Shown: positions 33,490 to 59,339 of the stretch, piece after piece | Layout: each line of letters opens with the position of its first letter | Numbering within the stretch: the stretch's first letter is position 1 | Source: Erwinia billingiae Eb661 | GTDB taxonomy: Bacteria > Pseudomonadota > Gammaproteobacteria > Enterobacterales > Enterobacteriaceae | DNA length: 64,000 nt | NCBI RefSeq assembly: GCF_000196615.1 | Contig: NC_014306.1 | Location: 3,348,001 to 3,412,000 of the forward strand | Reading direction: 5' to 3' | Made by a program: the position numbers and the translations under genes | The notes under the pieces: model-generated | Databases searched by the model: none | What the model saw: the letters and a program-made list of their open reading frames with translations, nothing else | What the model was told of the DNA's origin: nothing

Positions 33490-34608
33490 TTAGAACTGGT
33501 AAACCAGGCCCAGTGCCACGACGTCATCGGTGTTGATGCCTGCTGCGTCGGTGAAGTTGTTGTCATCCAGCAGGTTGATTTGGTAATCAACATAGGTAGA
33601 CATGTTTTTGTTGAAGTAGTAGGTCGCGCCCACATCAACATATTTTTTCAGGTTCTGAGAACCGTAACCTTCGATGTCGCTGCCGCGTGAGCTAACGAAC
33701 GCCAGGGAAGGACGCAGACCGAAGTCAAATTGGTACTGAGCAACCAGTTCCCAGTTGTCCGCGGTGTTAGCATAACCGTAGGCATCAGAACCGCTTGAAC
33801 CGAAGCGAGTGGCGTTCAGTGAACGGGTGTACATCGCCGCCAGGTAGATGTTATTCGCATCATATTTCAGGCCGCCGGTGTAAGCCGTTGCTTTGTCACC
33901 ACGACCCAGAATGTCCTGAGTTGCTGCGCTGCCGCCATTCTGCTCATTGGTACGGTCAGAACTGAACATTGCTGCACCGATACCAAAGCCTTCGCCCAGG
34001 TCGTAAGTGGTTGACAGACCATAGCCATCGCCATTTCCGCCCAGTACGTCACGGCCAGTCGCAGATTCGGTATCGCTGTCATTTTTGCCCTGATACTGAA
34101 CGGCAAAGTTCCAGCCATCGACCAGACCAAAGAAGTTGTTGTTACGGTAAGTCGCCAGGCCGTTAGAACGCTGGAACATAAAGTTGTCCGCGCCATAGGT
34201 GTCACCACCGAACTCTGGCAGGACGTCAGTCCAGGCGCCGATGTCATAGGCTACGCCGTAGTTACGACCGTAGTCGAAGGATCCGGCATCGCCGAACTTC
34301 ACACCTGCAAAGCCAACACGGGTAAAGCTGTTTGCTGTCCCTTCAGACTCAGCTGTGTTCAGCGCTGCCTGATACTCCCACTGGCCGTAACCGGTCAGCT
34401 GATCGCTGATTTGGGTTTCGCCTTTAAAACCGAAGCGAACATAAGACTGGTCGCCATCAGAACCGTCGTTATCGGAGAAATAGTGCAGACCGTCTACTTT
34501 ACCGAAGAGGTCAAGTTTGTTGCCATCTTTGTTGTAGATTTCAGCCGCGCCCGCTGAACCGGCGATCAACATCGCTGGGACCATCAGGGAAAGAACTCGA
34601 AGTTTCAT
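33490..34608 (-). CDS. ompC: Outer-membrane porin OmpC
   Basis: OmpC forms trimeric 16-strand beta-barrel pores for small hydrophilic solutes. The 372-residue precursor has a signal peptide ending [18 protein letters not shown]. Loop 3 carries the porin motif PEFGGDTY near residue 130. The C terminus is ALGLVYQF with the terminal Phe required for barrel assembly. Neighbouring apbE, the upstream micF gene and the OmpR sites all match E. coli ompC rather than ompF. Surface loops (for example the Gly/Asp/Asn-rich loop around residue 200) differ, as usual in porins. Confidence 0.95.
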
Positions 34609-39929: not shown

Positions 39930-40116
39930 CGAAATTCCCTTGTGCACCGGATATTAGGTAAAGGCATGCGGTCGAAAGATAAAGCAGCGCTTTATTTTCC
40001 AGAAGCATAAGCTAGCCAGCGCCGAAGAGGGAGCTGAGCCTGACCCGGTGTCGGACGGATTACAGAGCAACCCGCCACAAGAGAAATGGTTAGAACAGCA
40101 GCCATGACATCTTGCA

Positions 40117-43300: not shown

Positions 43301-46300
43301 AATGTTGACGCTCCAGCGACCCAACGCATTCACCGTTGACTGGTAAGATTTGGTGCCCAGCGTGACGGTAACGGTTGAACCGGTTGCCGCCGTGACGGTG
43401 CCGCCCACCGTTTGGGTTAAGGCAGCCTCGGCGATATTCAGCAGGCCATCGCCGCCAAACAGCGTATCCAGCGCGCCGATAACCGGTGCGGTAAGGATTG
43501 TGGTGACGGTTTCGCCGATGGTTCTGCTGTTACCCGCCGCATCGGTCAGCACCAGTTCCAGTTCCGTACTGCCTGGCTGCAGCGCACCCAACAGGCTCGG
43601 CGGTACCACCAGCGCAAAGTTGCCGTCCTGGCCAACGTTAGCGGTCAGCGTGGTGCCGCCCAGCGTTAAGGATACCGTCGCGCCGACGCCAGCGGAGGTT
43701 GCCACACCGGTAATGGTCTGGGCAACAGCCGTGTCGGCAGCATTGAGGAAGCCGTCACCAAACAGTGAGTCGACCACCAGATTCAGCGCGCTGTTCACCA
43801 CTTTATTAATGGTGACCGTGGCATCGGTCTGGTTACCGGCGGCATCGTCGACACGCAGGCCAAACACCAGCGTGCCGTCGGTCAGGCTACCCAGCACTTC
43901 CGGCGTCAGTTGAATGCTGAAGGTACCGTTAGGCTGCACGATGGCGGTCGCAATCGGTGCACCGTCGCCGAGATACAGACCAATGGTCTGGCCTTCGGCC
44001 CCGGAGGCGGTACCGGTCAACAACTGCGTGGTGAGGATATCGGTGGCGTTCAGCAGGTTATCGCCCAGCAGCGCCTCCACCTGAATCAGCGGTGCGCCGG
44101 TATCCACGGTGAAGGTATCCGTAGTGGTCGTGAGGTTACCCGCCGCATCGCTCAGGGTGGCGGTAATGGTATGACCGGTCTGCGTGAGCGCCTGCAGGTC
44201 ACCAGAAGGCACGCTGGTGCTCCAGCTGCCGTTTGCCTGCACAATCGCGGTATAGGTTTTGCCTTCCAGCGTCACGGTGACCGCTCTGCCCGCCTCGGAA
44301 GTGGATGCGGTGCCGCTGATGGTCTGCGAAACCGCAGCTTCACTGCCATTCAGCACGTTATCGCCAGCAAATGCCGCGATGGTCAGCGTTGGCGCTACGC
44401 GGTCGACGAGGATTTGCTCGCTGGCCGTGAACGTGCCGTCGTCCACCGTGACCAGTTGCGCCTGAACAGTGTGGGTCCCGTCGGCCAGGTTCGCTGGCAG
44501 ATTCGGGATAGTCACCGACCAGGTCCCTGCGGCGGTCGCTACCGGATAGGTGCCGACCGGCACACCATCTACCGTGACGGTAATGGTTCCCGCACCCGTT
44601 AAGGCTGGCAGATTGGCAAAGGTGCCGTTAATCGTCAGCGTGTCACCATCGGTGGCGTTCACGATATTGTCAGTCGACACCGGTGCCAGCGTTAACAGCG
44701 GCGTTGCCGGCAGCGTCAGGTCTATGGTGACGTCGGCACTGGCGGTGCCGATATTGCCTGCCGCATCGGCTACCGACACCCCGATGGTGCCGGTGCCGCT
44801 GGTGCCAAGCTGCGCAATCGCCGCTGGCGTAACGTTGACTGACCAGCTTCCATCAGCCTGCACCACGCCGGTCAGCGTGGAGGTACCGATGGTGACCGTC
44901 ACCAGCTGTCCCGCGCTGGCACCGACGGTGGTTCCGCTCAGCGTCTGCGCAGACAGGCTTTCGACATAGGTCAGCGCATTGTCGCCGGTAAACGGCGTAA
45001 TGGTGACGGTCGGTGCCTGGGTATCCACCGTGAAGCTGCCCGCCACGGTGGTGGCGTTGCCGGCACTGTCAGTGGCCACAACCGTGACCGCCTGAGTACC
45101 CTGTGCCAGCGCACCCAACTCGGCCGCGCCGAGACCCAGCGTCCAGACACCGTTGGTGCCGGCGGTAACGTCATAGTTAGTGCCACCGACGGTGACCCTC
45201 ACCGCCTGGTTAGCGCCCGCCGTACCGGTCAGTGATGCACCGGCTGTGGCTTCCGCCAGATTCAGGAAGCTGTCGACAAACGGCGTCGCCAGCGTAGCCA
45301 CCGGGGCCGTCAGTGCCGCGCTAAAGTCCAGGGTTTCCGTGGTGCTGTTGCCCGCCGGATCGGTGACCGTCACGTTGACACTGTGCGTCCCTGCGGTCAG
45401 GCCACTCAATGTGCCTGCTGGCAACGCCACCGACCAGTTACCGTCAGCATCGACGGTGCCGGTATAGGTGACGCCCGCCACGTCGATCCTCAGCTGCACG
45501 CCCTGGTTAGCGCCGGTGGCACCGGTGGTGCCGGTCAGCGTTAACGCGCCGGCCGCTTCCGCGATGTTCAGTACGCCATCGCCAAACAGGGTATTGATGG
45601 TCGGATCCGGTGCGGTCAGTACGGCGGTAAAGTCGAGTGCCGCGGTATCGCTGTTACCTGCGCTGTCGGTCGCGGTGACGCTGACGGTATGCGTGCCGTT
45701 GGCCAACGCGCCCAGCTGCGCGGGCGTCAGGCTCAGCGACCAGTTGCCGCCCGCATCGACGGTCGCCGCGACTGGGTTACCGTTGTTTAAGCCGCTGATA
45801 GAGACATTCACCGTCTGGCCCGCACCGAGTTTACCGGTAGAGCCACTGATGGCCTGCGCCAGGGCGGCTTCGCTGATATTCAGCTGGCCATCGCCAAACG
45901 GCAGGTTGATCGACACGTCAGGCAGATCGTTAATCGCCACCAGCAAGGCACCGCTGGTCGTTCCAACGTTGCCTACGCTGTCGGTGACGGTAACCGCAAT
46001 TGGCCAGTTGCCATCCGGCAGCGTGGTCAATACGTTGGCCGGTAGTGCCAGACTCCATTGCCCGGTCGCCGTATCCACCGTCGCGGTATAGGCCGCGCCG
46101 TTAATATTGACGCTCACCGTCTGCGCACCGGTGATACCGGTGACGCCCGTCAGCGCACCGCCTGCTGCCGCTTCCGTGGCATTCAGCACGCCATCGACAA
46201 ACGGCTGCACCAGCGTTGGTGCCGGCAGTCCGGTGATGATGGCGGTGAAGTCCAGCGAGTCGCTGCTGCTGTTACCCGCGCGATCGGTGACCACCACGTC

Positions 46301-49300
46301 AATGGTATGCGTGCCGTTGCCCAAATCCGCCGCCATTGACGGCGTCAGCGTGGCGCTCCAGTTGCCGTTAGCATCGACGGTTGCGGTGACGACATTATTA
46401 TCAATCTGCAGCTCAACCGTCTGGCCCGCACCGACAATGCCGGTGGTGCCACTGATGATTTGATCGACACCGGCTTCAACCGCATTCAGTGCGCCATCGA
46501 CAAACGGAACCGCTATATCGGCGACCGGCAGCGTATTGGCCAACACTTCAACACTGCCGTTGACGCTGGCCGGGTTGCCCGCCGCATCCGTAGCGGTGAC
46601 GGAAACCTGCAGCGTTCCATCCGCAAGGCCGCTGAGCGCCCCGGCCGGGATGTTCGCCGACCAGAGGCCGTCAGCCTGAACGGTGCCCGCGAAGGTCAGG
46701 TTACCAATGGTCACCTGAACCGCCGTGCCGACATCCAGGTTAGTGGCGGTGCCGGTGAGGATCTGTGCCGCCGTGACTTCGGCTGCATTGAGCAGTCCAT
46801 CCACAAACGGCGTCGCCAGCGTCAGCACCGGCAGCGTATTGATCGCCACGCCCAGATCCAGCAGATCCGTGGTGGTATTACCGGCGGTATCGGTGACCGA
46901 GACGCCGACCTGCGCGGTGCCATCAGGCAGCAGCAGCAAATCACCGGCCGGGATAGTCAGGCTCCAGGTGCCGTTATCCGTCACCGTGGTGGTGTAGGTT
47001 TTATTGTTCAACGTCACGTCAATGGTCAGTCCCGCTTCAGACGTCCCGCCCACCAGCAATCCTGCGACTGCTTCAGCCAGATTCAGGATCTGATCCGTTC
47101 CGGCACCTAAGGTGACGTCGAGGATCGGTGGATTGGTGTCGACGGTGAAGTTTTCGCTGCTGGTGGCAGGGTTGCCCGCCACGTCATTGCCGCTGGCCGT
47201 CACGCTGTTGGTGCCCTGATTCAGCGCCTGAACATCCGCCGCCGGAACGGTTGCCGTCCAGTTGCCGTCCGCATCCACCGTGGCGGTGTAGGTTTTGCTG
47301 TTGAGGGTAACGGTGATGTTATCCCCGGCGGCAATATGCTGGCTGGTGCCGGTGATCTGCACATCACTTCGGGATTCATTGAAGTTGATCACATCATCGC
47401 TGGTCACCGGATTAATGGCGATCACCGGCAGATCGGCTGCCTGAGCAATCACCGTCACCTGATGCGTTGAGCTGGCCGGATTGCCGGAGGTATCCGTCAC
47501 CGACACGCTGATGGTCTGCGCACCGTCCGTCAGCGCGCCAACGTTGGCGGCCGGCACACTGGTGGTCCATGTGCCATCTGCCAGCACCGTGGCGGTATAG
47601 GTGACGTTGTTCAGGGTAATGGTGACCGTCTGTCCTTCCGCCACGTTAGTGGTGGTTCCCGCAATGGTCAGCGGCTGTCCGGCTTCGGCCTGATTAATGT
47701 AGTCATCACCGGAGACGATGCCCACGGTAATGGTTGGCTGGTTAGCCGGAGACGCATCCACCGTCACCGTCAGATTCTGCACGGTGCTGTTCCCGGCGCT
47801 GTCGGTCAGCGTGGCGATGACCGGATAGGTGCCATCGGCCAGGGTTTGCGTCACGCTGGAAGGCAGATCCAGCTTCCAGGTGCCATCACTTTGCACCGTT
47901 TGCTGATATGTCTGGCCATTAAAGGTAATGGTCACCTGCTGACCCGCTTCGCTCACGGACGCGGTACCGCTGATGGAGACTGGCTGCAGGATCTCAGCCG
48001 CATTGATGATGTTGTCGCCGGCAACCGGCGTCAGTGCCAGCGTCGGCGCAACCAGATCGACGGTAATGGTGGTGTCGATCGTACCGGTATTGCCCTGCGC
48101 ATCGGCGGCGGTCACGGTGATGGTCTGGATCCCGTCGCCCAGGCCCTGCAAGGTCGCCGTGCTGAGTGGCAGGGTCCAGTTGCCGTTGGCATCCACCGTG
48201 GCGGTGAAATCAGCGCCATTGATGTTTACGGTGACGGTTTGACCGGCCCCGCTGACGCCTGTGGTGCCGGTCAGCGTCTGATCGGCCCCGGCTTCGCTGA
48301 TACTCAGATAGCCATCGACAAACGGTGTGTTGATGGTCGGCTGCAGCGCTTCCGTCGCCACAACCACCGTGGTGGTGATGGTGCCGGTGTTACCTGCCGC
48401 ATCACTGAGGCTGACATTCAGCGGATAGCTACCGTCTGCCGCAGCCTGCAGTAAACCGGCTGGCAGTTGCAGACTCCAGTCACCCTGGGCATTAACGGTG
48501 GTGCTGTAGCTTTGTCCATTGAGGGTGACCGTGACCGTCTGGCCTTCCTCTGCGCCCACGCTGCCACCGCTCACGGTGATTTCCGCGGCGGCTTCACCGT
48601 TGTTCACCACGCCGTCACCCGCGACAGGATTCAGAGACAGTGTTGGTGCAACCGTATCCACGCTGAACGGGATCGCCAGTATATTGCTGTTGCCGGCGAC
48701 GTCGGTGACGGTCACCGGAATACTGGTATCACCCTGCGCCAGGGTTTGCAGGGCCACAGACGGCACGGACACCGTCCAGTTGCCATCCGCATCCACCACA
48801 CCGGTATAGGTCGTGGTGCCAATCACTACCGAGACGGTCTGACCGTCGCCGGTGACGCCGGTGGTGCCGCTCAGGGTCTGCGTCAGCGCGGCTTCATTAC
48901 CGTTCAGCACGCCATCGGAGAACGGTGTATCGGCAGTGGCCAGTGGCAGATCGTTGACGTGAACATTCAGGATGCTGCTTCCGGTGACGGTTGCGCCGGT
49001 ATTGTCGGTGACGCTGGCGGTCAGCGTTACCGCCCCGTCCGGCAGACCGGCCAGTGAAGAAGCCGGAATAATGGCATTCCACACGCCATTGGCGCCCACC
49101 ACGGCCGTAAAGGTCTGGCCATTAAAGGCCACGGTCACCGTGCTGCCTTCGGCGACGTTCGCCGTGGTACCTGAAACAATCAGCGCATCCTGCGCTTCTT
49201 CGGCATTCAGGTAGCCATCGGTGCTCAGCGGATCCAGGCTGATGCCTGCAGCCTCACTGTTAACCGTCAGGCTGTGGGTGGCAGTGACCGGGTTGCCTGC

Positions 49301-52300
49301 TGCATCGCTGACGGCCACGTTGAAGGTGGCGGTGCCGTCAATCAGTGCTGCCAGCGCGGCGGATGGAATGCTGACGCTCCAGCCGCCGCTGGCCTGTACG
49401 GTCGCTTCATAAACCTGACCGTTAAGGGTGACGGTGACAATCTGACCGGCTTCGACGTTAGTTGTCGAGCCGCTCAGCAGCTGCGCGGTCTGCTGTTCAG
49501 CACCGTCCAGAATGTCATTGCCGGCAAAGGTGTTGACGGTAAGCGTTGGCAGCGAAGCGGCATCGGCTTTCACCGCCAGCGTGCTGTCGACCGTGCTGCT
49601 GTTGCCTGCCGGATCGGTGGCGGTCACGCTCAGGGTATAGTTGCCGTTGGTCAGCGCAGCCAGGTCGCCTGCAGGAACGGTCACCGTCCATTCGCCGGTA
49701 TCGTTAACCTCAGCGGTGTATTGCACGCCGTTCAGGGTGATCTGAACCGTTGCATTCGCTTCGCTGCTGCCATTGACCACCAGTGGAGCGCCCTGCTCAG
49801 CCGCATTCAAAATGTTGTCGCCGGCAACCGGCCCCACTGCAACCGCAGGTGGCAGACTATCAACCGCCAGGGTGAGATTGGCGGTCGCCGGATTTCCGGC
49901 CGCATCGCTGACGTTAACCACCGCAGTGGTATCGCCCTGAGGCAGCGCCTGCAAGGCATCAGCCGGAACGCTGACGCTCCAGTTGCCGTTGCCATCGACC
50001 GTACCGTTGTAGGTGACGCCATTAATGACGACGTTGACCGTCTGACCATCGCCGGTCACGCCGGTGGTGCCGGTCAGGGTCTGCGGACTGCCCGCTTCCT
50101 GTCCGTTAAGGGTGCCATCAACAAACGGCACATCGGTGGTGACCACCGGCAGATCGGTAATTGCCACGGTCAGCCCGGCAGTACTGGTCACCGGGTTGCC
50201 AGCCGCATCGGTACTGGTCACGGTGAGCTGCAGCGCGCCGTCAGGCAGGCCCTGCAGGGTTGCCGCCGGAACCGAGATGCTCCAGCTGCCATCCGCCGCT
50301 ACGGTGGTTGGATAGGTTACGCCATTCAGCACCACGGTTAACGCGGCACCTTCCGCTACGTTAAGCGTTGTTCCGCTGATGATCAGCGGATCCTGGGCTT
50401 CGGCGAAACTCAGGTAGCCGTCGCCGCTAACCGGGTTAATCGCCACGCCGCTCAGGCTGCTGTTAATGTCAAAGTTGCCCGGCACGGTGCTGATGTTGCC
50501 GGCCGCATCGCTGACGGTGACGCTGTAGGTCTGGCTACCCTCAGCCAGTCCACCCAGCGCAGCCGCTGGAATGGTGACGCTCCAGTCACCACTCGCCTGC
50601 ACCACGCCGGTGTAGCTGACGCCATTCAGGGTCACGGTGACCAGTTGGCCTTCCTGCACATTGGTGGTGGTGCCGCTCAGCAGCTGATCGACCTGCTGTT
50701 CAGCGCCATCAACCACGTCGTTTCCGGCGAACGCATTCAGCGTCAGCGTTGGCAGCGAATCTGCATCAACGACGACGTTCAGTGGTGCATCCTGCGTGGT
50801 GGTATTACCGGCCAGATCGGTAGAGACCACGGTCACGGTGTAATTGCCGTTGGTCAGTCCGGCCAGTGCATCGGCCGGAATGTCCAGGCTCCACTGGCCA
50901 TTGCTGCCAACGGTGGTGAGGTATTCGGCTCCCTGGAAGGTCACGGAAATGGCCGCGCCGTTTTCCCCGGTCCCGCTGACGGTCAGGGGTTGCGCCTGTT
51001 CAGCCACATTCAGTACGCCGTCGCCAGCGATGGGGGCCACGCTCAGCGCCGGTGCGGTCAAATCCACCGCCAGCGAGGAATTGGCTGAAGTGCTGTTGCC
51101 CGCAACATCCGTTGCCGTCACGGTCACCGGATAGGTGCCGTTGGTCAGCGCCGTGGCATCGGCAGCCGGTACCGCAACGGTCCAGTTGCCATCGCCATCG
51201 ACCGTGCCCTGATAGGTCACGCCATTCAGGGTGACGCGAATGCTGTCACCGACCTCGCCCGTACCGCTAATCGCCAGCGGCTGGCCCTGCTCACTGGCAT
51301 TCAGCGAACCGTCGCCAGAAATCGTTGCCACAATCAGCGCCGGTGGGGTGAGATCCACGGTGACAGTTCGATCGACCGTCACCGGCTGGCCGGTGGTCGG
51401 CGTCGCGGTGACAGTCAGGGAGTATGGGCCATCCGTCACGCCCGTTAAGGCACTGGCAGGGATCGCTGCGGTCCACAGCCCGTCAGCACCGACCGTGGCG
51501 GTGTAATTCGTGCCGTTAAAGTTGACCACCACGGTGGTGCTGCCATCCGCCACGCTACCGGTGACGTTAACGCCCAGCTGCGCTTCGGCGGCGTTGACGA
51601 TATCGTCGCCCGCCACGGTATTGACGATCACCGTGGTATCGATAGCGGTTTCGACGCTGACCGCAGGGGTCTGCACCGCGCTGTTACCCGCGGCATCGGT
51701 AACCGTCACCGTGACGGTATTGTTCCCTTCGGTCAGGTTGCCCAGCGTGCTGGCAGGCACGGTAACGCTCCACTGCCCGTCCGAACCCACGGTGGTGTTG
51801 TAGGTCTGTCCGCCCAGCGTCACCGTCACCGCATCGCCCTGCGTACCGGTACCGGTAATGGCCAGCGGCTGGCTCTGTTCAGCCAGGTCGATGATGTTAT
51901 CGCCCGCAATGTCATTGACGGTAAAGGTTGGTGCAGCGGTATCCACGCTCAACGGCAGGTTTTGCGTGGTGGTATTGCCATAGACATCTGACGCCACGAT
52001 CTGCAACGCATAAGGACCGTCGGCAAGACCGGCCACCACGGTTTGCGGCACCGTCACGCTCCAGTTGCCCGCATCATCCACCGTTGCCGCGTACGTTGTG
52101 CCATTCAGCAGCACATTAACGGTATCCCCCGGAGAGACCGTGCCGCTCAGCACCAGCGCGCTGGCCTGTTCTTCCTGATTAATAATATTGTCGCCGCCGG
52201 CCACGTCACCGGTAGTCAGCGTTGGCAAGGTGGTTGCCACGGTAATGTCCGGGACCGGCGTAATGGTGGCGGTATTGCCCGCGATATCGGTGACGGTCAC

Positions 52301-55300
52301 GGTGACCGGCGTGGTGCCCTGCGGCAGCGCCTGCAATACGGTGCTCGGCAGATCCAGTGACCAGACGCCAGAGCTGTTGACCGTGGCGTTGTAATCCTGG
52401 CCATTAATATTGACGACAACGGTCTGACCGTCGCCGGTTTGGCCGGTGACCCCGGTCAGCGTCTGCGCCACGCCCGCTTCGGCATTGTTCAGCACGCCGT
52501 CGGTAAACGGCGGCGCCAGCGTCGGTGCCAGCGTGGGTTCGTTCAGAACCGTCAGCGAGCCATCGCTGGTAACGGTGGTGCCATTGCCTGCCACCACGCT
52601 AACGGCGGCATCCACTGGGCCTTGCGGTAACGCCGCCAGCGCAGTGGCCGGAACCGATAGGCTCCAGCTGCCGTCGGCACTGACGGTGGTGGTGTAGGCG
52701 ACACCGTTAAGGGTAAAGGTGACCAGGCTGTCGACCGGGACGTTAGTGGTATTACCGGTGACGTTCAACGCGGATTCGGTCTCAACCGCATTCAGGTAGC
52801 CATCGTCGCTGAGCGGATTGAAGGCGATGCTGCTGAGGGTGTTATCCACGCTGAAGGTTTTGTCGGTGGTGCCGGTATTGCCGGCCAGATCGGTCACGCT
52901 GACGCTAAGGGTTTGCGAGCCATTGGCCAGCGCGGCCAGATCGCTGGCGGGCACGCTCACCTGCCAGCTGCCGCCGGTTTCAACGGTAGTGACATAGCTG
53001 ACGCCGTTCAGCGACACGGTCAGCGTTTGCCCCGCTTCAACGTTGGTGGCGGTACCGGTGATCAGCTGGTTCACCTGCTGTTCGGCACCATCGATGACGT
53101 TATTGGCGGTGATATCCGAGACAAAGATGGACGGAATATTTTTATCCACCACCAGCGTGGTGCTGGTGTCGGTGGCATTGCCCGCCTGATCGCTGGCGGT
53201 AACGTTGAGGGTATAGCTGCCGTTCGCCAGACCGGCCACCACGTTGCCCGGAATAGTCAGCGACCACACGCCATCCGCATTGACCACCGCGGTGTAGTTA
53301 ACATTGTTCAGCTCAACGCTGACCGTGTTGCCGACTTCGCCGGTGCCGTTAACCACCAGCGGTTGATTACTCTCGGCCGCATTGAGGTAGCCGTCAGAGG
53401 CCGGATTCACCGTAACCGTTGGCGGCGTTAAATCGACGTCCAGCGTGCGCAGGACAGACGTCGAGTTACCGGCAGCATCGGTGGTGGTGACCTGGACTTC
53501 ATAGCTGCCATCGGTCAGCGCAACCAGCGCCGCTGCCGGGACATCCACACTCCAGTTACCGGTGCCGGTCACCGTGGCGGTATAGAACTGCCCATTCAGC
53601 GAAATTGTGACGGTATCGCCAAATTCACCGCTGCCGCTTAAGGTCAGTGGCTGGCCCTGCTCTGCCAGATTCAGGCGATTGTCTTCGGCGATGGCATCAA
53701 CCGTTAAGGCCGGTGCCAGCGTATCAACCTGGAAGCTGTCGTTCAGCGTGGTGCTGTTGCCTGCCGAATCGGTCGCGGTCACCACCAGCGGATTGTTCCC
53801 CTGTGGCAGCGCCTGCAGCACGGCATTCGGCAGCGAGACCGACCAGTTGCCGTTGGCATCAACGGTGCCGGTGTAGGTGATGCCACCCAACACAATCGAC
53901 ACGCCCTGACCTGCGCCAGTCACGCCGGTCGATCCGGTGAGGGTCTGATCGGCGATCGACTCTGCACCATTTAAGGTGCCATCCACAAACGGCGTATCCA
54001 CCACCAGCGCGAAGTCCGGATTCACATCGGAAGTCAGGCTGTGGGTGGTGGTAATAACGTTGCCGTTCACGTCGGTGGCGGTTGCCGTTACGGTCAGATC
54101 GCCATTCGGCAAGGTGCCCAATGCCGCAGCCGGCACGGTGACGTTCCAGCTACCGTCAGAGTTAGTGGTGGTTTCGTAATCGACGTTGTTAAAACGCACC
54201 AGGATCCGCGCGCCAAAGGCCACAAAACGGCTGCTGCCGTGGATCACCAGATCGTTTTGCGCTTCAACATTATTCAGCATGTTGTCATCGCTGATCGCGC
54301 CGATGGCGATGGCGCTGAAGGTGTTATCCACGGTGTAGTTGCCGGTGGTGGCCGCCGGGTTGCCGGCAACATCACTGACGTCGACGGTATAGTTTTGCGT
54401 GCCGTTCGCCAGCTGGTAGAAGGCGCTGGCAGGGACCAGGACGCTCCAGCTGCCGTCTGACTGCACGGTCCCGTTGTAGGTTTCGCCGTTCATGGTGACG
54501 GTCACAACCTGACCCGCCTGAACATTGGTGGTGCTACCGGTGACAAACTGAGACAGGCCTTTTTCAGCCCCATCCAAAATGCCGTCGCCGGTAAACGGTG
54601 CCACGCTGATGGTTGGCAGATCCGCCGCGTTGGCGATGACCTGCAGTGTCTGGGTGGTGGTGCCGACGTTACCCGCCGCATCGGTAGCCTGCACGCTGAC
54701 GTTGTAGCTGCCGTCAACCAGCTGGGTGACCGTGGCCGCAGGAACGGTGACAGTCCAGTTGCCGTCAGCATCGACGGTAGCGGGGTAAATGCCGCCGTTC
54801 AGCGTTACCTGCACCGTTGAACCCAGTTCCGCAGTGCCGGTAAGGGTCAAGGCTGCGCCGTGCTCGACCGCGTTGAGATAGCCGTCACCCGAAACCGGCG
54901 CCAGGCTCACGTCAGGCGCAGCGGTGTCTTTGAGGATTGGCGTCAGTTCGGTGGTTTTATTGCCGCCCGCATCGGTGGCGGTGACGCTAAGGTCATATTT
55001 ACCGTCTGGCAGCGTTTGCAGGGTTGAAGGCGACACGCTGACGCTCCAGTTCCCCGCCGCATCGGTGCCGGTATTGTAGGTTACACCGCCGACCACCACG
55101 CTGATGGTGCTGCCGGCTTCGGCGGTACCGCTGACGACCAGCGGCTGATTCTGGCTCTGGCCATTAATGGCGCCATCATTGCCGAACGGGGCGACCGTCA
55201 GCGCTGGCGGCGTGGTATCCACCGTCACCGGAACCGTAGACGAGATGCTGTTGCCCAGTGAATCTTTCACCGTCACTATCACGTCGGTGCTGCCGTCTGG

Positions 55301-58300
55301 CAGTGCCTGAAGCACGCCCGGTTGCAGCGTCAAGGTCCACACGCCGGTGTCAGGATTAACGGTGGCCGGATAATCGACGCCGCCAATGGTCACGGTGACC
55401 GACTGATCGGGGAAGGTTACGCCGGTATTACCGGTCAGCGTTTGTGGCGAATCCGTTTCGGTGCTGCTGAGAATATTGTCGCCAAACGGCGCATTCACTT
55501 CGATGTTGTTCGGGAACGTGGTGCGCACATCGAGGCTGGCTTCGTTGCTGACCGTGGTGCCACCCGCATCCACCCCGGTGACGCTCACGGTATAGGTATT
55601 GTTGGCGAGGCCAGACAGTGCCGCAGCCGGAACCGTCGCCGTCCAGCTGCCGTCTGCGCCGACGGTGGCCGCATAGCCGATGCCATTGAAGGTGACGGTC
55701 AGCGCCGTGTTCTCCGGCAGGCCCACGCTGACGCCGCCAATCAGCAGATCGCTGTTGGCCTCATTCGCATTCAGCGCGTTATCGATGCTGATTGCCCCAA
55801 TGCTCAGCGATGCCACGCTGTTATCAACGTTCACATCCACGGAGCCCGTGGCGGTATTGACGTTACCAGCCAGATCGGTGACCTGGACGGTAAAGGACTG
55901 GGTGCCGTTGGTGAGGGTCTGCAGCTCGCTGGCTGGCAGCGTAATACTCCAGCCGCCACCTGCTGCCACCACGCCCTGATAGACGTTGCCGTCGGCCAGC
56001 GTGACCTGCACCTGGCTACCGGCCGGCGCATTGGTGGTCTGCCCGGTCAGGAATTGATCCTGAGTGACTTCAGCGGCATTCAGCACGCCGTCGCCGGTTA
56101 ACGGATCCACGGTCACCGTTGGGCGATTGGCCGGATCGGCAGCGAAGGTCACGTCGGTATAGGTTTCGGTGCGGTTGCCGGCGGCATCGGTGGCGATCAC
56201 CGTCACCTGATAGGTGCCATCGGCAATGCCGCCTTTGATATCGTCCAGCGAGACTGTCCAGGCGCCGGTGGTTGGATTGACGGTCGCGGTCAGATCCACA
56301 CCGTTAATTTGCACCAGCACGGTATTGCCGACTTCCGTCTGGCCGTTGACTGACAGCGGCAGCGCCAGTTCGCCCGCGTTGACATAGCCGTCGGTGGAAA
56401 TGGTTTCAACGCTGACGGTAGGCGCAATGGTATCCACGTCCAGGGTGGTGGTGGTTGGCGCGCTGGTATTGCCATAGGCATCGGTCGCGGTGACAGAAAC
56501 GGTGGTACCACCCTGCGGGATCGTCTGCAAATCCGAGGCCGGAACGTTAACGCTCCAGGTGCCGTTCGCATTGACCGCGGTGGTGTAGGTGACGCCATTC
56601 AGGGTCACGGTGACGGTTTCGCTGCCGTTGCTTAAGCCGCTGATGGTCAGCGGCTGATTCACTTCCGTCTGATTCAGCAACGCATCCGACAGCTCAACGC
56701 TGACGGTGGGTGGCGCGGTGACCACATTGACCGGCGTGGTCGAGGTGGAGGTATTGCCCGCCGGATCGGTGACCACCACGGTGATATCGTTGCTGCCCTG
56801 CGGCAGATTCTGCAAGGTGGCTGGCGGCACGGTGACCGTCCAGCTGCCGTCATTGTTGACCGTGCCGGTGTATTCCGTGCCGCCAACGGTGACGGTAACC
56901 GTCTGCCCGCTGCCGGTTGATCCGGTATTACCCGTCAGCGTCTGTGGCGTCGACGCTTCACCGCCACTCAGCACGCCGTCACCGAACGGCACATCAATCG
57001 TGGCATTCGGTGGCGTGGTATGCACCTCAAGCGAAACGGCAGAGCTGTTTTGCACCACCGATCCATCCGCCAGCGTGGCGGTCGCAGTGACCAGATTCGA
57101 GCCTTGTGGCAACTGTTGCAGATCGGCGGCAGGCACGGAGGTGCTCCAGCTGCCATCTGCGCCAACGGTGGCGGAATAAGACTTACCGCCGAGCGTGACG
57201 CTCAACACGGTGCCGGCAGGAATGCCGGTGGCAAAACCAGAAATCACCAGCGAAGACTGGGATTCAGTGGCGTTCAGCTGGCCGTCGCCGCTGAGTTCAC
57301 TGATGCTGATACTGCTGACGGAAATCGCCTGCACATCGAAATTATGCGAGGCAGAGACCGAAGCACCGGCGGCATTAGACACCGTCGCGGTGATGGTGCT
57401 CTCGCCATTGGCCAGGGCCTGCAAAGCCGAGGCGGGCACCGAAATACTCCAGCTGCCGTTAGCCCCAACCGTTGCGGTGTAGGTTTGTCCGCCCAGTGAA
57501 ATGGTAACGGTCTGCCCTTGCTGAACGTTGGTGGTGGTACCACTCAGGGTTTGCGGCGTCGATCTTTCTGCCCCATCCAGCACGTCGTTTCCGGCAAAGG
57601 TATTAATCCCAATGGTTGGCGCGTTAGGCTGGGTGATTTCAGGCTGGACGGTGAACACATCGGTGCCGGTGGCGGTGTTGCCTTCGGCATTGGTGACGCT
57701 GACGTTGATGGTGTTGCTGCCGTTTGGCAGCGCCGCCAAATCTGCCGCAGGCAGAGAAATACTCCAGCTGCCATCGGCGCCCACGGTGGTGGTGTAGGTT
57801 TTGCCGTTCAGCACGATGGTCACCGTGCTGCCCGCTTCGGCGTTGGTGGTGGTGCCGCTCAGCGTCTGGTTACTGCCCTTCTCGGCCTGAGTCAGCACAT
57901 CGTCGCCGGTAAACGCATTAACACTGACAGTTGGCGTTAGGGGAGTCGTTCCGCCGCCGTTGTTACCACCGTTGTTTCCGCCGTCGGTCCCGCCATTGTT
58001 TCCGCCGTCGGTCCCGCCGTTGTTATTATCGTCGCCGCCACCACCACCGCCGCCACCGCCGGCAATCGCGCCGACCGCCAGTCCAGCCAGACCCAGCGCA
58101 CCAATACCTGCAGCGGTGATCACGCCGTTAGACGCGCCGGTATCCGCCAGCAGAAGCGGTTCGATCGATCCCAGAGATTCATATTCCGGGGTGACCGCCA
58201 TGGCGGTCTGGGCATCGGCGAACTCATTGGTGATCGGGAACAGCGCGTGCTCAGGAGGATTAACGCCATCGTCGAAGACCAGCTCGCTGTGGTCACCATC

Positions 58301-58534
58301 GACGTCGTCGAAGAAGAATTGTTGATAGCGAACCACGCTACCGTCGCGCATGTGCAAAATCAGGTCGTTACCCTGGCGCTCAAACCCGGTCACCATGTCT
58401 CGGGTACCGTGAATTCTCACTACGCTGGGTTGATTCAGAAGGACGTTATGGGACAAGCCCGCATTGGCCTGTGACAGGATTTTTCCATCATCGCGTGAAA
58501 CGATATCTACGCGGCCATCATTGAGCTCTGCCAT
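40331..58534 (-). CDS. Giant BapA-like repetitive adhesin, type I secreted, 6067 aa
   Basis: This single 18.2-kb frame encodes a surface adhesin of the biofilm-associated BapA/LapF type. Residues 1-128 form a BapA-prefix-like beta domain. A hydrophobic Ala/Gly stretch (129-158) contains TAAG at 140-143, followed by a run of nine Gly and an Asn/Gly/Asp linker (about 159-199). About 56 Ig-like domains of about 100 residues occupy 201-5815. Each opens with a motif like GDGxLNxAE, has GxTVTVTLNGxxY and DGSWSVxVP cores, and ends TDAAGNxxT. A Ser/Thr/Ala/Asp-rich low-complexity tail (about 5818-5905) leads to a C-terminal domain (about 5907-6067) with one RTX-like GGAGTDTL and an acidic/hydrophobic end expected of a type I signal. 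There is no N-terminal Sec signal. GAGG precedes the ATG. No frameshift interrupts the frame. The export genes follow on the same strand. Confidence 0.95.
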   Translation of the reverse strand: MAELNDGRVDIVSRDDGKILSQANAGLSHNVLLNQPSVVRIHGTRDMVTGFERQGNDLILHMRDGSVVRYQQFFFDDVDGDHSELVFDDGVNPPEHALFPITNEFADAQTAMAVTPEYESLGSIEPLLLADTGASNGVITAAGIGALGLAGLAVGAIAGGGGGGGGGDDNNNGGTDGGNNGGTDGGNNGGNNGGGTTPLTPTVSVNAFTGDDVLTQAEKGSNQTLSGTTTNAEAGSTVTIVLNGKTYTTTVGADGSWSISLPAADLAALPNGSNTINVSVTNAEGNTATGTDVFTVQPEITQPNAPTIGINTFAGNDVLDGAERSTPQTLSGTTTNVQQGQTVTISLGGQTYTATVGANGSWSISVPASALQALANGESTITATVSNAAGASVSASHNFDVQAISVSSISISELSGDGQLNATESQSSLVISGFATGIPAGTVLSVTLGGKSYSATVGADGSWSTSVPAADLQQLPQGSNLVTATATLADGSVVQNSSAVSLEVHTTPPNATIDVPFGDGVLSGGEASTPQTLTGNTGSTGSGQTVTVTVGGTEYTGTVNNDGSWTVTVPPATLQNLPQGSNDITVVVTDPAGNTSTSTTPVNVVTAPPTVSVELSDALLNQTEVNQPLTISGLSNGSETVTVTLNGVTYTTAVNANGTWSVNVPASDLQTIPQGGTTVSVTATDAYGNTSAPTTTTLDVDTIAPTVSVETISTDGYVNAGELALPLSVNGQTEVGNTVLVQINGVDLTATVNPTTGAWTVSLDDIKGGIADGTYQVTVIATDAAGNRTETYTDVTFAADPANRPTVTVDPLTGDGVLNAAEVTQDQFLTGQTTNAPAGSQVQVTLADGNVYQGVVAAGGGWSITLPASELQTLTNGTQSFTVQVTDLAGNVNTATGSVDVNVDNSVASLSIGAISIDNALNANEANSDLLIGGVSVGLPENTALTVTFNGIGYAATVGADGSWTATVPAAALSGLANNTYTVSVTGVDAGGTTVSNEASLDVRTTFPNNIEVNAPFGDNILSSTETDSPQTLTGNTGVTFPDQSVTVTIGGVDYPATVNPDTGVWTLTLQPGVLQALPDGSTDVIVTVKDSLGNSISSTVPVTVDTTPPALTVAPFGNDGAINGQSQNQPLVVSGTAEAGSTISVVVGGVTYNTGTDAAGNWSVSVSPSTLQTLPDGKYDLSVTATDAGGNKTTELTPILKDTAAPDVSLAPVSGDGYLNAVEHGAALTLTGTAELGSTVQVTLNGGIYPATVDADGNWTVTVPAATVTQLVDGSYNVSVQATDAAGNVGTTTQTLQVIANAADLPTISVAPFTGDGILDGAEKGLSQFVTGSTTNVQAGQVVTVTMNGETYNGTVQSDGSWSVLVPASAFYQLANGTQNYTVDVSDVAGNPAATTGNYTVDNTFSAIAIGAISDDNMLNNVEAQNDLVIHGSSRFVAFGARILVRFNNVDYETTTNSDGSWNVTVPAAALGTLPNGDLTVTATATDVNGNVITTTHSLTSDVNPDFALVVDTPFVDGTLNGAESIADQTLTGSTGVTGAGQGVSIVLGGITYTGTVDANGNWSVSLPNAVLQALPQGNNPLVVTATDSAGNSTTLNDSFQVDTLAPALTVDAIAEDNRLNLAEQGQPLTLSGSGEFGDTVTISLNGQFYTATVTGTGNWSVDVPAAALVALTDGSYEVQVTTTDAAGNSTSVLRTLDVDLTPPTVTVNPASDGYLNAAESNQPLVVNGTGEVGNTVSVELNNVNYTAVVNADGVWSLTIPGNVVAGLANGSYTLNVTASDQAGNATDTSTTLVVDKNIPSIFVSDITANNVIDGAEQQVNQLITGTATNVEAGQTLTVSLNGVSYVTTVETGGSWQVSVPASDLAALANGSQTLSVSVTDLAGNTGTTDKTFSVDNTLSSIAFNPLSDDGYLNAVETESALNVTGNTTNVPVDSLVTFTLNGVAYTTTVSADGSWSLSVPATALAALPQGPVDAAVSVVAGNGTTVTSDGSLTVLNEPTLAPTLAPPFTDGVLNNAEAGVAQTLTGVTGQTGDGQTVVVNINGQDYNATVNSSGVWSLDLPSTVLQALPQGTTPVTVTVTDIAGNTATITPVPDITVATTLPTLTTGDVAGGDNIINQEEQASALVLSGTVSPGDTVNVLLNGTTYAATVDDAGNWSVTVPQTVVAGLADGPYALQIVASDVYGNTTTQNLPLSVDTAAPTFTVNDIAGDNIIDLAEQSQPLAITGTGTQGDAVTVTLGGQTYNTTVGSDGQWSVTVPASTLGNLTEGNNTVTVTVTDAAGNSAVQTPAVSVETAIDTTVIVNTVAGDDIVNAAEAQLGVNVTGSVADGSTTVVVNFNGTNYTATVGADGLWTAAIPASALTGVTDGPYSLTVTATPTTGQPVTVDRTVTVDLTPPALIVATISGDGSLNASEQGQPLAISGTGEVGDSIRVTLNGVTYQGTVDGDGNWTVAVPAADATALTNGTYPVTVTATDVAGNSTSANSSLAVDLTAPALSVAPIAGDGVLNVAEQAQPLTVSGTGENGAAISVTFQGAEYLTTVGSNGQWSLDIPADALAGLTNGNYTVTVVSTDLAGNTTTQDAPLNVVVDADSLPTLTLNAFAGNDVVDGAEQQVDQLLSGTTTNVQEGQLVTVTLNGVSYTGVVQASGDWSVTIPAAALGGLAEGSQTYSVTVSDAAGNISTVPGNFDINSSLSGVAINPVSGDGYLSFAEAQDPLIISGTTLNVAEGAALTVVLNGVTYPTTVAADGSWSISVPAATLQGLPDGALQLTVTSTDAAGNPVTSTAGLTVAITDLPVVTTDVPFVDGTLNGQEAGSPQTLTGTTGVTGDGQTVNVVINGVTYNGTVDGNGNWSVSVPADALQALPQGDTTAVVNVSDAAGNPATANLTLAVDSLPPAVAVGPVAGDNILNAAEQGAPLVVNGSSEANATVQITLNGVQYTAEVNDTGEWTVTVPAGDLAALTNGNYTLSVTATDPAGNSSTVDSTLAVKADAASLPTLTVNTFAGNDILDGAEQQTAQLLSGSTTNVEAGQIVTVTLNGQVYEATVQASGGWSVSIPSAALAALIDGTATFNVAVSDAAGNPVTATHSLTVNSEAAGISLDPLSTDGYLNAEEAQDALIVSGTTANVAEGSTVTVAFNGQTFTAVVGANGVWNAIIPASSLAGLPDGAVTLTASVTDNTGATVTGSSILNVHVNDLPLATADTPFSDGVLNGNEAALTQTLSGTTGVTGDGQTVSVVIGTTTYTGVVDADGNWTVSVPSVALQTLAQGDTSIPVTVTDVAGNSNILAIPFSVDTVAPTLSLNPVAGDGVVNNGEAAAEITVSGGSVGAEEGQTVTVTLNGQSYSTTVNAQGDWSLQLPAGLLQAAADGSYPLNVSLSDAAGNTGTITTTVVVATEALQPTINTPFVDGYLSISEAGADQTLTGTTGVSGAGQTVTVNINGADFTATVDANGNWTLPLSTATLQGLGDGIQTITVTAADAQGNTGTIDTTITVDLVAPTLALTPVAGDNIINAAEILQPVSISGTASVSEAGQQVTITFNGQTYQQTVQSDGTWKLDLPSSVTQTLADGTYPVIATLTDSAGNSTVQNLTVTVDASPANQPTITVGIVSGDDYINQAEAGQPLTIAGTTTNVAEGQTVTITLNNVTYTATVLADGTWTTSVPAANVGALTDGAQTISVSVTDTSGNPASSTHQVTVIAQAADLPVIAINPVTSDDVINFNESRSDVQITGTSQHIAAGDNITVTLNSKTYTATVDADGNWTATVPAADVQALNQGTNSVTASGNDVAGNPATSSENFTVDTNPPILDVTLGAGTDQILNLAEAVAGLLVGGTSEAGLTIDVTLNNKTYTTTVTDNGTWSLTIPAGDLLLLPDGTAQVGVSVTDTAGNTTTDLLDLGVAINTLPVLTLATPFVDGLLNAAEVTAAQILTGTATNLDVGTAVQVTIGNLTFAGTVQADGLWSANIPAGALSGLADGTLQVSVTATDAAGNPASVNGSVEVLANTLPVADIAVPFVDGALNAVEAGVDQIISGTTGIVGAGQTVELQIDNNVVTATVDANGNWSATLTPSMAADLGNGTHTIDVVVTDRAGNSSSDSLDFTAIITGLPAPTLVQPFVDGVLNATEAAAGGALTGVTGITGAQTVSVNINGAAYTATVDTATGQWSLALPANVLTTLPDGNWPIAVTVTDSVGNVGTTSGALLVAINDLPDVSINLPFGDGQLNISEAALAQAISGSTGKLGAGQTVNVSISGLNNGNPVAATVDAGGNWSLSLTPAQLGALANGTHTVSVTATDSAGNSDTAALDFTAVLTAPDPTINTLFGDGVLNIAEAAGALTLTGTTGATGANQGVQLRIDVAGVTYTGTVDADGNWSVALPAGTLSGLTAGTHSVNVTVTDPAGNSTTETLDFSAALTAPVATLATPFVDSFLNLAEATAGASLTGTAGANQAVRVTVGGTNYDVTAGTNGVWTLGLGAAELGALAQGTQAVTVVATDSAGNATTVAGSFTVDTQAPTVTITPFTGDNALTYVESLSAQTLSGTTVGASAGQLVTVTIGTSTLTGVVQADGSWSVNVTPAAIAQLGTSGTGTIGVSVADAAGNIGTASADVTIDLTLPATPLLTLAPVSTDNIVNATDGDTLTINGTFANLPALTGAGTITVTVDGVPVGTYPVATAAGTWSVTIPNLPANLADGTHTVQAQLVTVDDGTFTASEQILVDRVAPTLTIAAFAGDNVLNGSEAAVSQTISGTASTSEAGRAVTVTLEGKTYTAIVQANGSWSTSVPSGDLQALTQTGHTITATLSDAAGNLTTTTDTFTVDTGAPLIQVEALLGDNLLNATDILTTQLLTGTASGAEGQTIGLYLGDGAPIATAIVQPNGTFSIQLTPEVLGSLTDGTLVFGLRVDDAAGNQTDATVTINKVVNSALNLVVDSLFGDGFLNAADTAVAQTITGVATSAGVGATVSLTLGGTTLTANVGQDGNFALVVPPSLLGALQPGSTELELVLTDAAGNSRTIGETVTTILTAPVIGALDTLFGGDGLLNIAEAALTQTVGGTVTAATGSTVTVTLGTKSYQSTVNALGRWSVNIPPLDLAALTDGTLALGVKVVDPAGNTSSTAVNVGIFTATPTVSIGSIFGDGILNIADALTNQTISGTVNNAVAGSIVHVSVGNTTVDATVGSNGAFTATITPALLSTLTSGNLTVTASVTDPAGNTSPVVSAGAVVKLTAPSITINPLFGDGLLNVADAVLGQTIGGTITGADAGSRVVVTIGSTQFVTTTAANGTFSLALTPTLLQGLTDGNLSVGVSVTDSAGNTTASSASALVGLQVPTITLNPLFGDGVLSLLESLVTQTISGTVGNGVAVGSTVTINLGSSTVTATVGQGGVFSAQIAPNILGTLLDGNLTVGVSVADAVGNVASTSAGLKVGIHSTPTLTLNTVFGDGVLSASDLNAAQTISGSSTNLTAGTTVSVSLSGKTYTTTVGSGGSWSLSVPKADLTALANGTLTATATATDAYGNQASNTGSLSVIAQTPPTVTISSVFGDGLLNATDALSAQTISGTSTNAEGSVITVRVGTATLTTTVGANGAWSVSVPAATLAALPDGTDSVTATLTNAAGNAGSGATTVLVGTHTLPTVAITNSSVFGGDHYLNLSEANVAETISGTSTNGVGSTVSVNVAGNIYTTTVLANGTWSVTVPSAALKNIADGSTNVTVTLTDAVGNTSTASDAFTAVTHNLPAIGVDPILSLVSVLVTGLTVSGGTLNLAQGTRLNVTLNGTTLQATTDALGRYSVKFTGGLLTALSLSSIVTVTAVDAAGNPASASNTLLLGSLLPVSTSSVATASVMMAVVADDTSAAAASTHSTTTDTSTTAVTHAATVDSTLVTGSDTSSTDTSTTTHDATAAAVTATDTAAVADSSAYTIGGVVITLADGHTVEGASVTGSTGNDTVTVNSLNFTHIDGGAGTDTLVLNGEHMALDLTSLGLKVEHIEVIDLGKAGTNSVKLDLNEALNITDSQTNDLVIKGTTGDQVTLANSDGGVWATSGQRTVDGQTFDVYHNSALSSANTLGDVLVQHNLQVHVV
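41650..44095 (-). repeat. C-terminal subfamily of Ig-like domains in the adhesin gene
   Basis: The last eight or nine domains differ from the rest. They open with LFGDGLLNxADA-like motifs, with Asp in place of the usual Glu, and share the phrase LTDGNLTVGVSVTDxAGN. They therefore expanded separately from the N-terminal super-repeat. Limits are approximate. Confidence 0.65.
48300..57625 (-). repeat. Higher-order super-repeat of Ig-like domains in the adhesin gene
   Basis: Five domain types recur in fixed order. Type A has xLxGTTTNVxAGQ (domain starts near 57620, 56125, 54620, 53130, 50750 and 49550). Type B follows a short VDN-type link and opens like VAINPVSGDGYL. Type C opens PFVDGTLNGxE...QTLTGxTGVTGxGQ. 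Types D and E are the VDTxAPxLTV-type domains. The first three units are about 1.5 kb apart (five domains); later units contain four to eight domains. Domain boundaries were read by eye and the ends are approximate. Confidence 0.75.
57950..58061 (-). repeat. Gly/Asn linker with a 24-bp tandem repeat
   Basis: The plus strand carries two copies of a 24-base unit (57972-57995 and 57996-58019), differing only in the last base, with partial copies on both sides. They are followed by a CCGCCACC-type triplet run coding for nine Gly (within about 58032-58061). All units are multiples of three, so gains or losses would change linker length without breaking the frame. Confidence 0.8.
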
Positions 58535-58911: not shown

Positions 58912-59339
58912 TCGATTTAGCGGATTTGAGGAGAAACCTAACCCAAACCGGCTTATTCCCGGATAATTCAGCGGCGTTACTATGCGAAAATTTCCATTAG
59001 ATTCGTGATAATCAGCACAACCTGACCTACCCTGAACCGGATGAAATTTAATCACCGCCGGTTGAGGTTCCAGCGCGAAATCGCGATTTTTTCATGTAAC
59101 ACCAATGATTTGAGTTAAATCCAGATTTCGCTCCGTTTCGCTAGGAGTTATCTGTAAATTGGCATTTAGCCGACAAATCTGATTAACAGCTCTGTTTTTC
59201 CCTGTTATTAACCTGAAGGCCCTTATAAATCCGGCCTGCCTGCCGCAACGTTTTCGGCTCTGGCTGGCGGGAATCTTCTTTAATGTTGCTATTTGTGGTA
59301 AAAAGTAGCGCTACTCGTGGCAGATTTTTAACGGACATT

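Follow-up and report, generated by a model that had tools for sequence, protein, structure and literature searches.

We consider it fairly probable that the giant adhesin encoded in the window, by which we mean the whole 64,000-nucleotide stretch of Erwinia billingiae Eb661 DNA that was analysed, is a two-compartment protein, in which an extender head built of multi-domain blocks and shaped by recombination, with distinct classes of domain joint, carries a nearly fixed tail. Descriptions of bacterial stalks often present them as strings of similar domains. A super-repeat of fixed order, together with a variable head and a near-constant tail, offers a testable rule for stalk growth; joint classes differing in putative Ca2+ ligands bear on how stiffness may be patterned along a stalk, and the block pattern bears on how length change can coexist with the avoidance of misfolding between like neighbours.

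The adhesin gene lies next to a set of secretion genes:

40331..58534, minus strand: giant adhesin gene, 6067 aa, 56 Ig-like (Big_13) domains
58130..58510, minus strand: BapA_N prefix-like N-terminal region, residues 9-135 (Pfam PF22783, NCBIfam NF033677)
40331..41083, minus strand: Ser/Thr-rich stretch plus the C-terminus, putatively the type I secretion signal
38556..39947, minus strand: TolC-family outer-membrane protein of a type I secretion system (TIGR01844, 296 bits, cut-off 225)
36368..38521, minus strand: LssB-type type I secretion permease/ATPase (TIGR03375, 842 bits, cut-off 693)
35202..36371, minus strand: HlyD-family periplasmic adaptor (TIGR01843, 329 bits, cut-off 209)

The N-terminal region belongs to both prefix families, scoring 67 bits against PF22783 (cut-off 27) and 83.6 bits against NF033677 (cut-off 35); the SiiE-type model NF047714, of 229 positions, gave 53.8 bits with the first 200 residues, below its curated 425. 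Because genes for an ABC transporter, an HlyD adaptor and a TolC-type protein, the components of a type I system, adjoin the adhesin gene, the adhesin would be exported by this route, and it is presumably a BapA_N-bearing, type I-secreted giant adhesin. A search of the last 250 residues for a C-terminal secretion-signal domain gave no match in Pfam at E up to 0.001 or in NCBIfam at E up to 1. The Big_13 assignment, the 56 domains, a beta-sandwich model of D12-D17 and a fold search identify a tandem bacterial Ig-like array; the best fold match was 4p99 (E 7.4e-31), and the sequence matched BIg50-52 of SiiE (2yn3, E 1.7e-15). The Ca_tandemer model NF033510 scored 380.6 bits (cut-off 50) at 41000-43000, about D50-D56 at the end of the tail, a stretch in which the joints lack the ligand set counted below.

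A self-trained domain HMM, with tandem matches above 10 bits retained, called 56 domains in the 6067-residue reading frame, in agreement with the roughly 56 proposed by an earlier, sequence-only reading of this DNA. They follow the string A-(ABCSS)x3-ABCSSSSS-ABCS-ABCS and then the tail, with D32 counted in both unit 6 and the tail:

57635..57934, minus strand: D01, extra type-A domain ahead of the first pentad
56132..57634, minus strand: unit 1, D02-D06, A-B-C-S-S
54626..56131, minus strand: unit 2, D07-D11, A-B-C-S-S
53135..54625, minus strand: unit 3, D12-D16, A-B-C-S-S
50762..53134, minus strand: unit 4, D17-D24, A-B-C-S-S-S-S-S
49559..50761, minus strand: unit 5, D25-D28, A-B-C-S
48347..49558, minus strand: unit 6, D29-D32, A-B-C-S, the typing of D32 being ambiguous
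41084..48646, minus strand: C-terminal tail, 25 domains (D32-D56) after the last ABC triad

The type-A domains D02, D07, D12, D17, D25 and D29 start at 57634, 56131, 54625, 53134, 50761 and 49558, spaced 5, 5, 5, 8 and 4 domains apart; all six match the starts that had been read by eye near 57620, 56125, 54620, 53130, 50750 and 49550. Within D02-D21, similarity between domains is highest at lag 5 (z 6.0; none of 5000 permutations of the order gave so high a value) and rises again at lags 10 (z 4.1) and 15 (z 1.9), whereas lags 1-4 and 6-9 lie at or below chance, so that this part of the array shows the stripes at multiples of five implied by the sequence-only reading and not merely a one-domain period. 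D22-D56 has no excess at lag 5 (z 0.9); its elevated lags are 1, 2 and 4 (z 4.0, 3.5 and 2.1). Taken together, the 56 domains give z 4.2 at lag 5 and 3.8 at lag 1; averaged over nine species, lag 5 reaches z 6.8. The one repeat that Tandem Repeats Finder reported in the adhesin was a 12/24-bp linker repeat; the program covers periods up to 500, and therefore the 1.5-kb unit was outside its reach.

Domains of one type are more alike than domains of different types (42.7% versus 35.4% identity; none of 20000 label permutations did as well). In a tree of the window's 56 domains, types A, B and C each fall on one side of a branch and thus stand as separate groups, with SH-aLRT values of 87, 89 and 98, only the last exceeding 95. 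Some unlabelled domains also fall inside these groups: D01 joins A, D36 and D56 join B, and D33 and D39-D43 join C. The five ordered types A to E of the sequence-only reading therefore held in part: A, B and C are separate and ordered, and each A is followed by the same B and C in all six units, but D and E domains mix within a single short-loop type S (2 changes). D01 is likewise of type A, and D22-D24 are three further S domains. A statistic for the S1/S2 phase of the pentads, as two in-phase lineages might produce, ranked 4 of 16. The constant element is the ABC triad, and the S run that follows it has 2, 2, 2, 5, 1 and 1 domains in the window.

The copies in the window are old. Those at lag 5 share 43-63% DNA identity, the longest exact DNA repeat in the array is 26 bp, and no 250-bp stretch reaches at least 90% identity, in contrast to the high DNA identity between the repeats of Periscope Proteins; self-BLAST with 16-base words found two stretches of at least 250 bp, at lags of about one and about two domains, and none at five. 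In 10 of 18 congeners the full set of 56 domains can be paired in order, and the 31-domain head string is identical in 8 of 18. Positional best hits number 3848 of 4032 in the window and 8 of the 18 fetched orthologues, a figure that is not a free estimate because those eight were picked for one-to-one alignment. As shown by this comparison of sequences, the block duplications in the window are older than the genus.

These observations bear on the idea of an active, periscope-like length switch, in which block number varies now among strains through homologous recombination. Relatives do carry long exact repeats (925 bp in L102, 448 bp in L092, 196 bp in L060 and 1551 bp in the paralogue L115), yet the window offers at most 26 bp and no long stretch at lag 5, and array length is 55-58 domains in 15 of the 18 fetched orthologues, with equal domain counts in three pairs of near genomes (L048/L049, L051/L054 and L053/L056); the count for L052 is unsure because an N gap (98 N) falls in its domains 3-4. 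We regard such switching as very unlikely. The built-in route for length change suggested by the sequence-only reading thus finds no support in the window allele, whose copies are old, and array length is nearly fixed across the genus. Large losses are rare, with 47 domains remaining in two E. persicina genomes and 39 in L058.

Recent block copying is visible in relatives. One congener, L060, has a fresh four-domain duplication, domains 7-10 against 11-14, at 95.8-97.9% DNA identity, while the flanking pairs drop to 60.6% and 69.3%; both ends of this single event lie at the B-C linker and have about 20 bp in common. Two other congeners, L055 and L059, have lag-5 copies whose S-A-B stretches share 72-88% protein identity. 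L099 and L102, from two other genera, contain seven ABC triads in four-domain units (lag-4 z 11.8 and 13.1) and fresh block copies as well. Together with the six ordered A-B-C units of the window, these cases uphold the proposal that the array grew by duplicating multi-domain blocks, which then diverged. Five as the general unit, which we also considered, did not survive: the S run varies in the window, a single spacer domain follows the triad (period 4) in 51 of 60 gaps in other genera, and a paralogous family has a six-domain period.

The spacing of near-identical domains was counted in 39 arrays and six of the seven paralogues (L116 omitted). Adjacent domains are at least 70% identical in only 19 of 2100 pairs, 18 of them A-A pairs near the N-terminal start; 12 such pairs occur at lag 2 and four at lag 3, nearly all within N-terminal A runs. 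In the six paralogous-family arrays, 115 of 289 pairs at lag 6 and 78 of 253 at lag 12 are this similar, and none at other lags up to 12. Comparison of the sequences shows that the units arose mainly through duplication of several-domain blocks, with some copying of single domains, chiefly of the A domains that open the array. The relatives suggest that giant adhesins of this kind change length in whole blocks of four to six domains, which are copied as such, with putative Ca2+-clamped joints at regular intervals. A period could in principle also be convergent, each position in a repeating three-dimensional arrangement being selected for similar residues with no copying of blocks, and type-specific features such as loop length and linker acid do go with joint class. 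However, the types group in the tree over 103 columns, and for the relatives convergence is contradicted by the fresh copies in L060, L099 and L102; we therefore consider it highly improbable.

The head and the tail differ in how freely they change. Of 52 arrays, 39 were used for this comparison, omitting near duplicates (L049, L054 and L056), poorly matching arrays (L112-L114) and paralogues (L115-L121); L061, a 1.9-kb fragment, was left out. Their N-terminal heads comprise 5-37 domains, whereas the tail has 25 or 23 domains in 32 of them, and most other-genus arrays have a tail of the same or nearly the same length as the window's; the tail of 13 in L108 is incomplete because its sequence is partial. 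Twelve of the 23 other-genus arrays were matched domain by domain to the window, and a single offset gives the best match for 191 of 292 tail domains and for 40 of 239 head domains. Tail order is weak in some genera (8 of 23 in L111; 11 of 23 in L095 and in L098). In L107, a five-domain copy lies inside the tail. The comparison shows that head length varies from genus to genus, with a nearly constant tail length.

Plain descent might account for the ordered head, with blocks duplicated by chance and the A-B-C order merely inherited by the copies for no structural or selective reason. Block duplication alone yields similarity limited to certain lags, and deletions are uninformative: the three large losses keep the A-B-C order, but so do most random deletions of equal length (23 of 27, 16 of 20 and 18 of 22), and we dropped this test as evidence. 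On the other hand, S runs of 1-5 domains and the starting A runs vary, and yet every unambiguous B in the head is flanked by A and by C within the genus (91 of 91 each), as are 81 of 86 (by A) and 82 of 86 (by C) in other genera, a rule that is partly circular because the last ABC triad is what delimits the head zone. Other genera also contain an ABB and a CBC. The pattern of putative Ca2+ ligands also recurs in genera that were not used to define it, and we hold plain descent to be possible but doubtful.

That pattern concerns three positions, those of the type I interdomain Ca2+ site, located by alignment to SiiE and MhLap. Putative ligand sets occupy 71 of 126 cells at C-S and S-S joints, and 0 of 54 at A-B and 0 of 54 at B-C; joint cells are not independent, since the species are related. 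Calculated from fractions, the joint from C to the next domain has a set in 23 of 37 cases in other congeners and 60 of 77 in other genera, against 0 of 37 and 0 of 79 at both A-B and B-C. The zeros rest mainly on the loop acid, whose place depends on the alignment, since the loop is longer in A, B and C; when any loop acid is counted, A-B and B-C reach at most 0.11 per joint. Four S joints in the window (D04-05, D19-20, D20-21 and D21-22) and most tail joints lack the set. The AlphaFold model of D12-D17 (mean pLDDT 90.2, pTM 0.50) has ten-residue mean pLDDT values of 80-86 around A-B, 83-86 at B-C, 89-93 at C-S, 90-92 at S-S and 94 at S-A, which agrees with looser A-B and B-C joints, although pLDDT is not flexibility. 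Inside the C domain, inner blocks score no higher (77 and 81).

In the two-compartment reading that we favour, the head, D01-D31 and taken as the part nearest the cell, would be an extender of repeated units, each an ABC triad with its S run, and the 25-domain C-terminal tail would be a nearly fixed array. Unequal exchange between like joints would add or remove whole blocks and so set how far the tail reaches. Joints that lead into S domains would carry the three type I Ca2+-site positions and may be stiff, and the A-B and B-C joints, which lack complete sets, may be Ca2+-independent. With near-identical domains mostly at least four places apart, neighbours would avoid co-misfolding while long identical DNA is kept for recombination. 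More tentatively, we speculate that giant Ig-like adhesins of this bacterial family step their length by four to six domains, and that the heteromeric unit reconciles two conflicting demands: neighbours would have to be unlike, for safe folding and for alternation of Ca2+-stiffened and Ca2+-free joints, while copies one unit apart could be identical and thereby recombine, making the head an adjustable, periodically hinged stalk with a fixed tail.

Word searches within one open library found neither 'super-repeat' nor 'higher-order repeat' for such adhesins, and a search for an Erwinia giant adhesin with Ig-like domains gave a single match, which concerned methanogens; such searches miss relevant work, as is shown by the EFG module of Acinetobacter BAP, which goes under another name. 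The adhesin resembles BapA and SiiE of Salmonella in its BapA_N prefix domain, its long Ig-like array and the adjacent TolC-ABC-HlyD genes. Most SiiE domains are described as holding the residues for two Ca2+ sites (PMC5466336); in contrast to SiiE, an ordered super-repeat with alternating joint classes is found here. With the extenders of RTX adhesins (MpIBP/MpAFP RII, MhLap and AhLap) it shares tandem beta-sandwich repeats with an Asp-based interdomain Ca2+ site, putative here, and the fold match to 4p99. Those extenders are described as having such a site and as repeating one domain at 65-100% identity, and each of their four solved structures has Ca2+ in its linkers (PMC7493085), whereas this adhesin alternates types and has some joints without the putative ligand set. 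In Periscope Proteins (Sgo_0707, Rib and SasG), repeat number is reported to set stalk length, and the repeats are highly similar, adjacent SHIRT domains being 82-100% identical (PMC8201768); near-identical copies in relatives of the adhesin lie mostly four to six domains apart, and those in the window are old.

Further afield, the titin A-band likewise has a fixed-order multi-domain super-repeat of Ig-like domains. The titin super-repeat matches the thick-filament spacing. Titin is an unrelated eukaryotic protein, and no comparable spacing partner is known for the adhesin. Acinetobacter BAP is also a giant biofilm protein with several Ig-like module types, A to G. Its EFG module lies in the C-terminal region, and the passages on BAP describe no A-B-C-S-like order over the main array, head-tail division or joint classes (PMC4647330). 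According to the same passages, that module has a fixed order and is present in two or four copies depending on BAP type, and it is a precedent for a multi-domain block as the unit of repetition (PMC4647330).

The giant adhesin carries 56 tandem Ig-like domains, D01-D56 from the N-terminus, each scoring above 10 bits with an HMM built from the domains of the protein itself.

40331-58534, minus strand: giant adhesin gene, 6067 residues

The sequence-only reading had described here a recurring A-B-C-D-E super-repeat that grew by block duplication. Its six type-A starts correspond to D02, D07, D12, D17, D25 and D29, and A, B and C form distinct groups in the domain tree (support 87, 89 and 98); its D and E types intermingle in a single short-loop group, which we name S. 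Profile typing, with profiles that exclude the window's own sequence but include its orthologues, gives the string A ABCSS ABCSS ABCSS ABCSSSSS ABCS ABCS, followed by the tail. Similarity at each lag (the distance in domains between compared pairs) was computed with domain centrality removed and set against 5000 order permutations. Within D02-D21 it was maximal at lag 5 (z 6.0; 0/5000 permutations as high), the only lag raised among 1-9; lag 10 was also high (z 4.1), and z at lag 5 reached 6.8 when averaged across nine species. In D22-D56, lag 5 was not raised (z 0.9) and lags 1, 2 and 4 were elevated. The super-repeat is real and was well described, except that the repeating unit consists of ABC and a following stretch of S domains, not of five fixed types. 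G+C over the gene (40331-58534) is 59-64% in 2-kb steps versus 47-59% in the rest of the window.

Among 18 orthologues of the genus, examined over the full frame, all 56 domains pair in order with counterparts in 10, three of which have two additional A domains following D02; L045 and L046 pair 53 and 52 domains. D23-D32 are missing from the two E. persicina arrays, and both D06-D10 and D20-D31 from L058; the head is rearranged in L055, L059 and L060. The 31-domain head string (D01-D31) is identical to the window's in 8/18. In nine one-to-one arrays, the window's included, mean identity is 65.2% between orthologous domains versus 35.9% between paralogues. This ordered pairing and the higher orthologue identity indicate that the pentads (A-B-C-S-S units) are older than the radiation of the genus. 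A length switch operating today in this gene is not supported: block copies at lag 5 share 43-63% DNA identity and the longest exact repeat within the gene is 26 bp, which makes an active recombination route unlikely in this allele. A 12/24-bp tandem repeat (57954-58025), encoding the Gly/Asn-rich linker that precedes D01, is a possible slippage site.

Across 39 arrays, the tail after the last ABC triad numbers 25 domains in 24 arrays and 23 in eight, the remainder having 27 (four arrays), 28, 17 and 13, the last in an array fetched only in part. Three of the four 27-domain tails contain a triad in which the third domain is assigned by the C-like profile of the tail, leaving 23 domains beyond it; the tail of 28, in L107, accompanies a five-domain copy within that tail (L107 domains 15-24; lag 5, z 4.3; listed pairs 56-76% identical). 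Head length ranges from 5 to 37 domains. In the 12 of 23 other-genus arrays compared with the window domain by domain, the best match lies at one common offset for 191/292 tail domains (from 23/25 in L089 to 8/23 in L111) and for only 40/239 head domains, which still match some window domain at a mean identity of 48-57%. Length change therefore concerns chiefly the N-terminal half. The C-terminus of type I-secreted adhesins exits first, so this half would lie nearest the cell.

The N-terminal region was matched in 87/246 genomes of the family, and 33 more stretches from relatives were read. The ABC triad reappears there, usually with a single spacer domain: inter-triad gaps are one domain in 51/60 cases in other genera and two domains in 40/75 in the genus. 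L099 and L102, from other genera, have seven triads each (lag-4 z 11.8 and 13.1); L102 contains a 925 bp exact repeat in a draft assembly, so its copy number should be treated cautiously. In the congener L060, a single recent duplication accounts for domains 7-10 and 11-14, whose DNA identity is 95.8-97.9% and falls to 60.6% before and 69.3% after the block; both boundaries lie at the B-C linker and have about 20 bp in common. This is direct evidence for block duplication, but of one event only. L055 and L059 hold an older lag-5 copy (self-BLAST 1355 and 1270 bp, 73-75% DNA identity), so both four- and five-domain blocks have been copied within the genus. Growth through duplicated multi-domain blocks, as originally proposed, is well supported. 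Six paralogous giant adhesins (L115, L117-L121; reading frames from about 6000 aa upward) follow a strict super-repeat of six domains (lag-6 z 12-19), with copies reaching 100% identity and, in L115, a longest exact repeat of 1551 bp.

Several congeners (G020, G019, G024, G011, G014 and G001) have a second, shorter frame with a BapA_N-like start just past the adhesin, about 13-19 kb from the main match; the window genome has a single match, and secretion genes occupy that place. The adhesin, secretion genes and an MFS gene (59283-60494) are flanked by ompC and rcsD (33490-34608 and 60515-63175). The two genes adjoin in E. coli, and the cluster may thus have been inserted between them.

Neighbouring domains are rarely alike: 19/2100 adjacent pairs in 45 arrays are at least 70% identical, 18 of them being A-A pairs located among domains 1-6. 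In 39 arrays, pairs at this threshold number 12 at lag 2 and four at lag 3 (all except two A-A at the start), 42 at lag 4 (six arrays) and eight at lag 5 (four arrays); the six paralogous-family arrays have 115/289 at lag 6, 78/253 at lag 12 and none at other lags among 1-12. The main exception is the near-identical type-A runs at the N-terminal start of L060 and L092, with neighbours up to 98% identical in protein. Similar neighbours are described as promoting misfolding in excerpts of two accounts (PMC4647330, PMC8201768), and building each unit from dissimilar domains would make avoidance of misfolding compatible with recombination between identical copies.

Domain type also seems to go with putative Ca2+ joints. 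Excerpted accounts describe the SiiE type I site as an end-of-domain Asp plus two acidic residues of the following domain (PMC5466336), and the MhLap ligands as side chains of three Asp and one Asn (PMC7493085). The corresponding positions scored here are the linker Asp, an acidic residue of the loop that follows the second strand, and the T-D-x-A-G-N Asp, a region covered by the SiiE 2yn3 alignment. Across nine species (cell counts back-calculated from printed fractions), the full set occurs in 71/126 cells for joints entering S from C or S, 8/45 at S-A, and 0/54 at both A-B and B-C. Congeners beyond these nine have it at 23/37 C-to-next joints and 0/37 at A-B and B-C; other genera have it at 60/77 C-to-next and 20/46 fourth-to-A joints, and at 0/79 of A-B and of B-C. 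The linker Asp alone occurs at B-C joints in a fraction of 0.09 in the nine-species count and 0.08 in the count beyond it. Counting against the association, four head joints of the C-S or S-S class and most tail joints lack the set, yet the tail end matches the NCBIfam Ca_tandemer model; moreover, the place of the loop acid depends on alignment.

A variable-number multi-domain block is not new in itself, since the EFG module of Acinetobacter BAP occurs as 2 or 4 copies close to the C-terminus (PMC4647330). The excerpted account of that protein describes no fixed order across the main array, head-tail division or joint classes (PMC4647330), and our comparisons add three things: a split into head and tail, units of four, five and six domains among relatives, and an association of domain type with putative Ca2+ joints.
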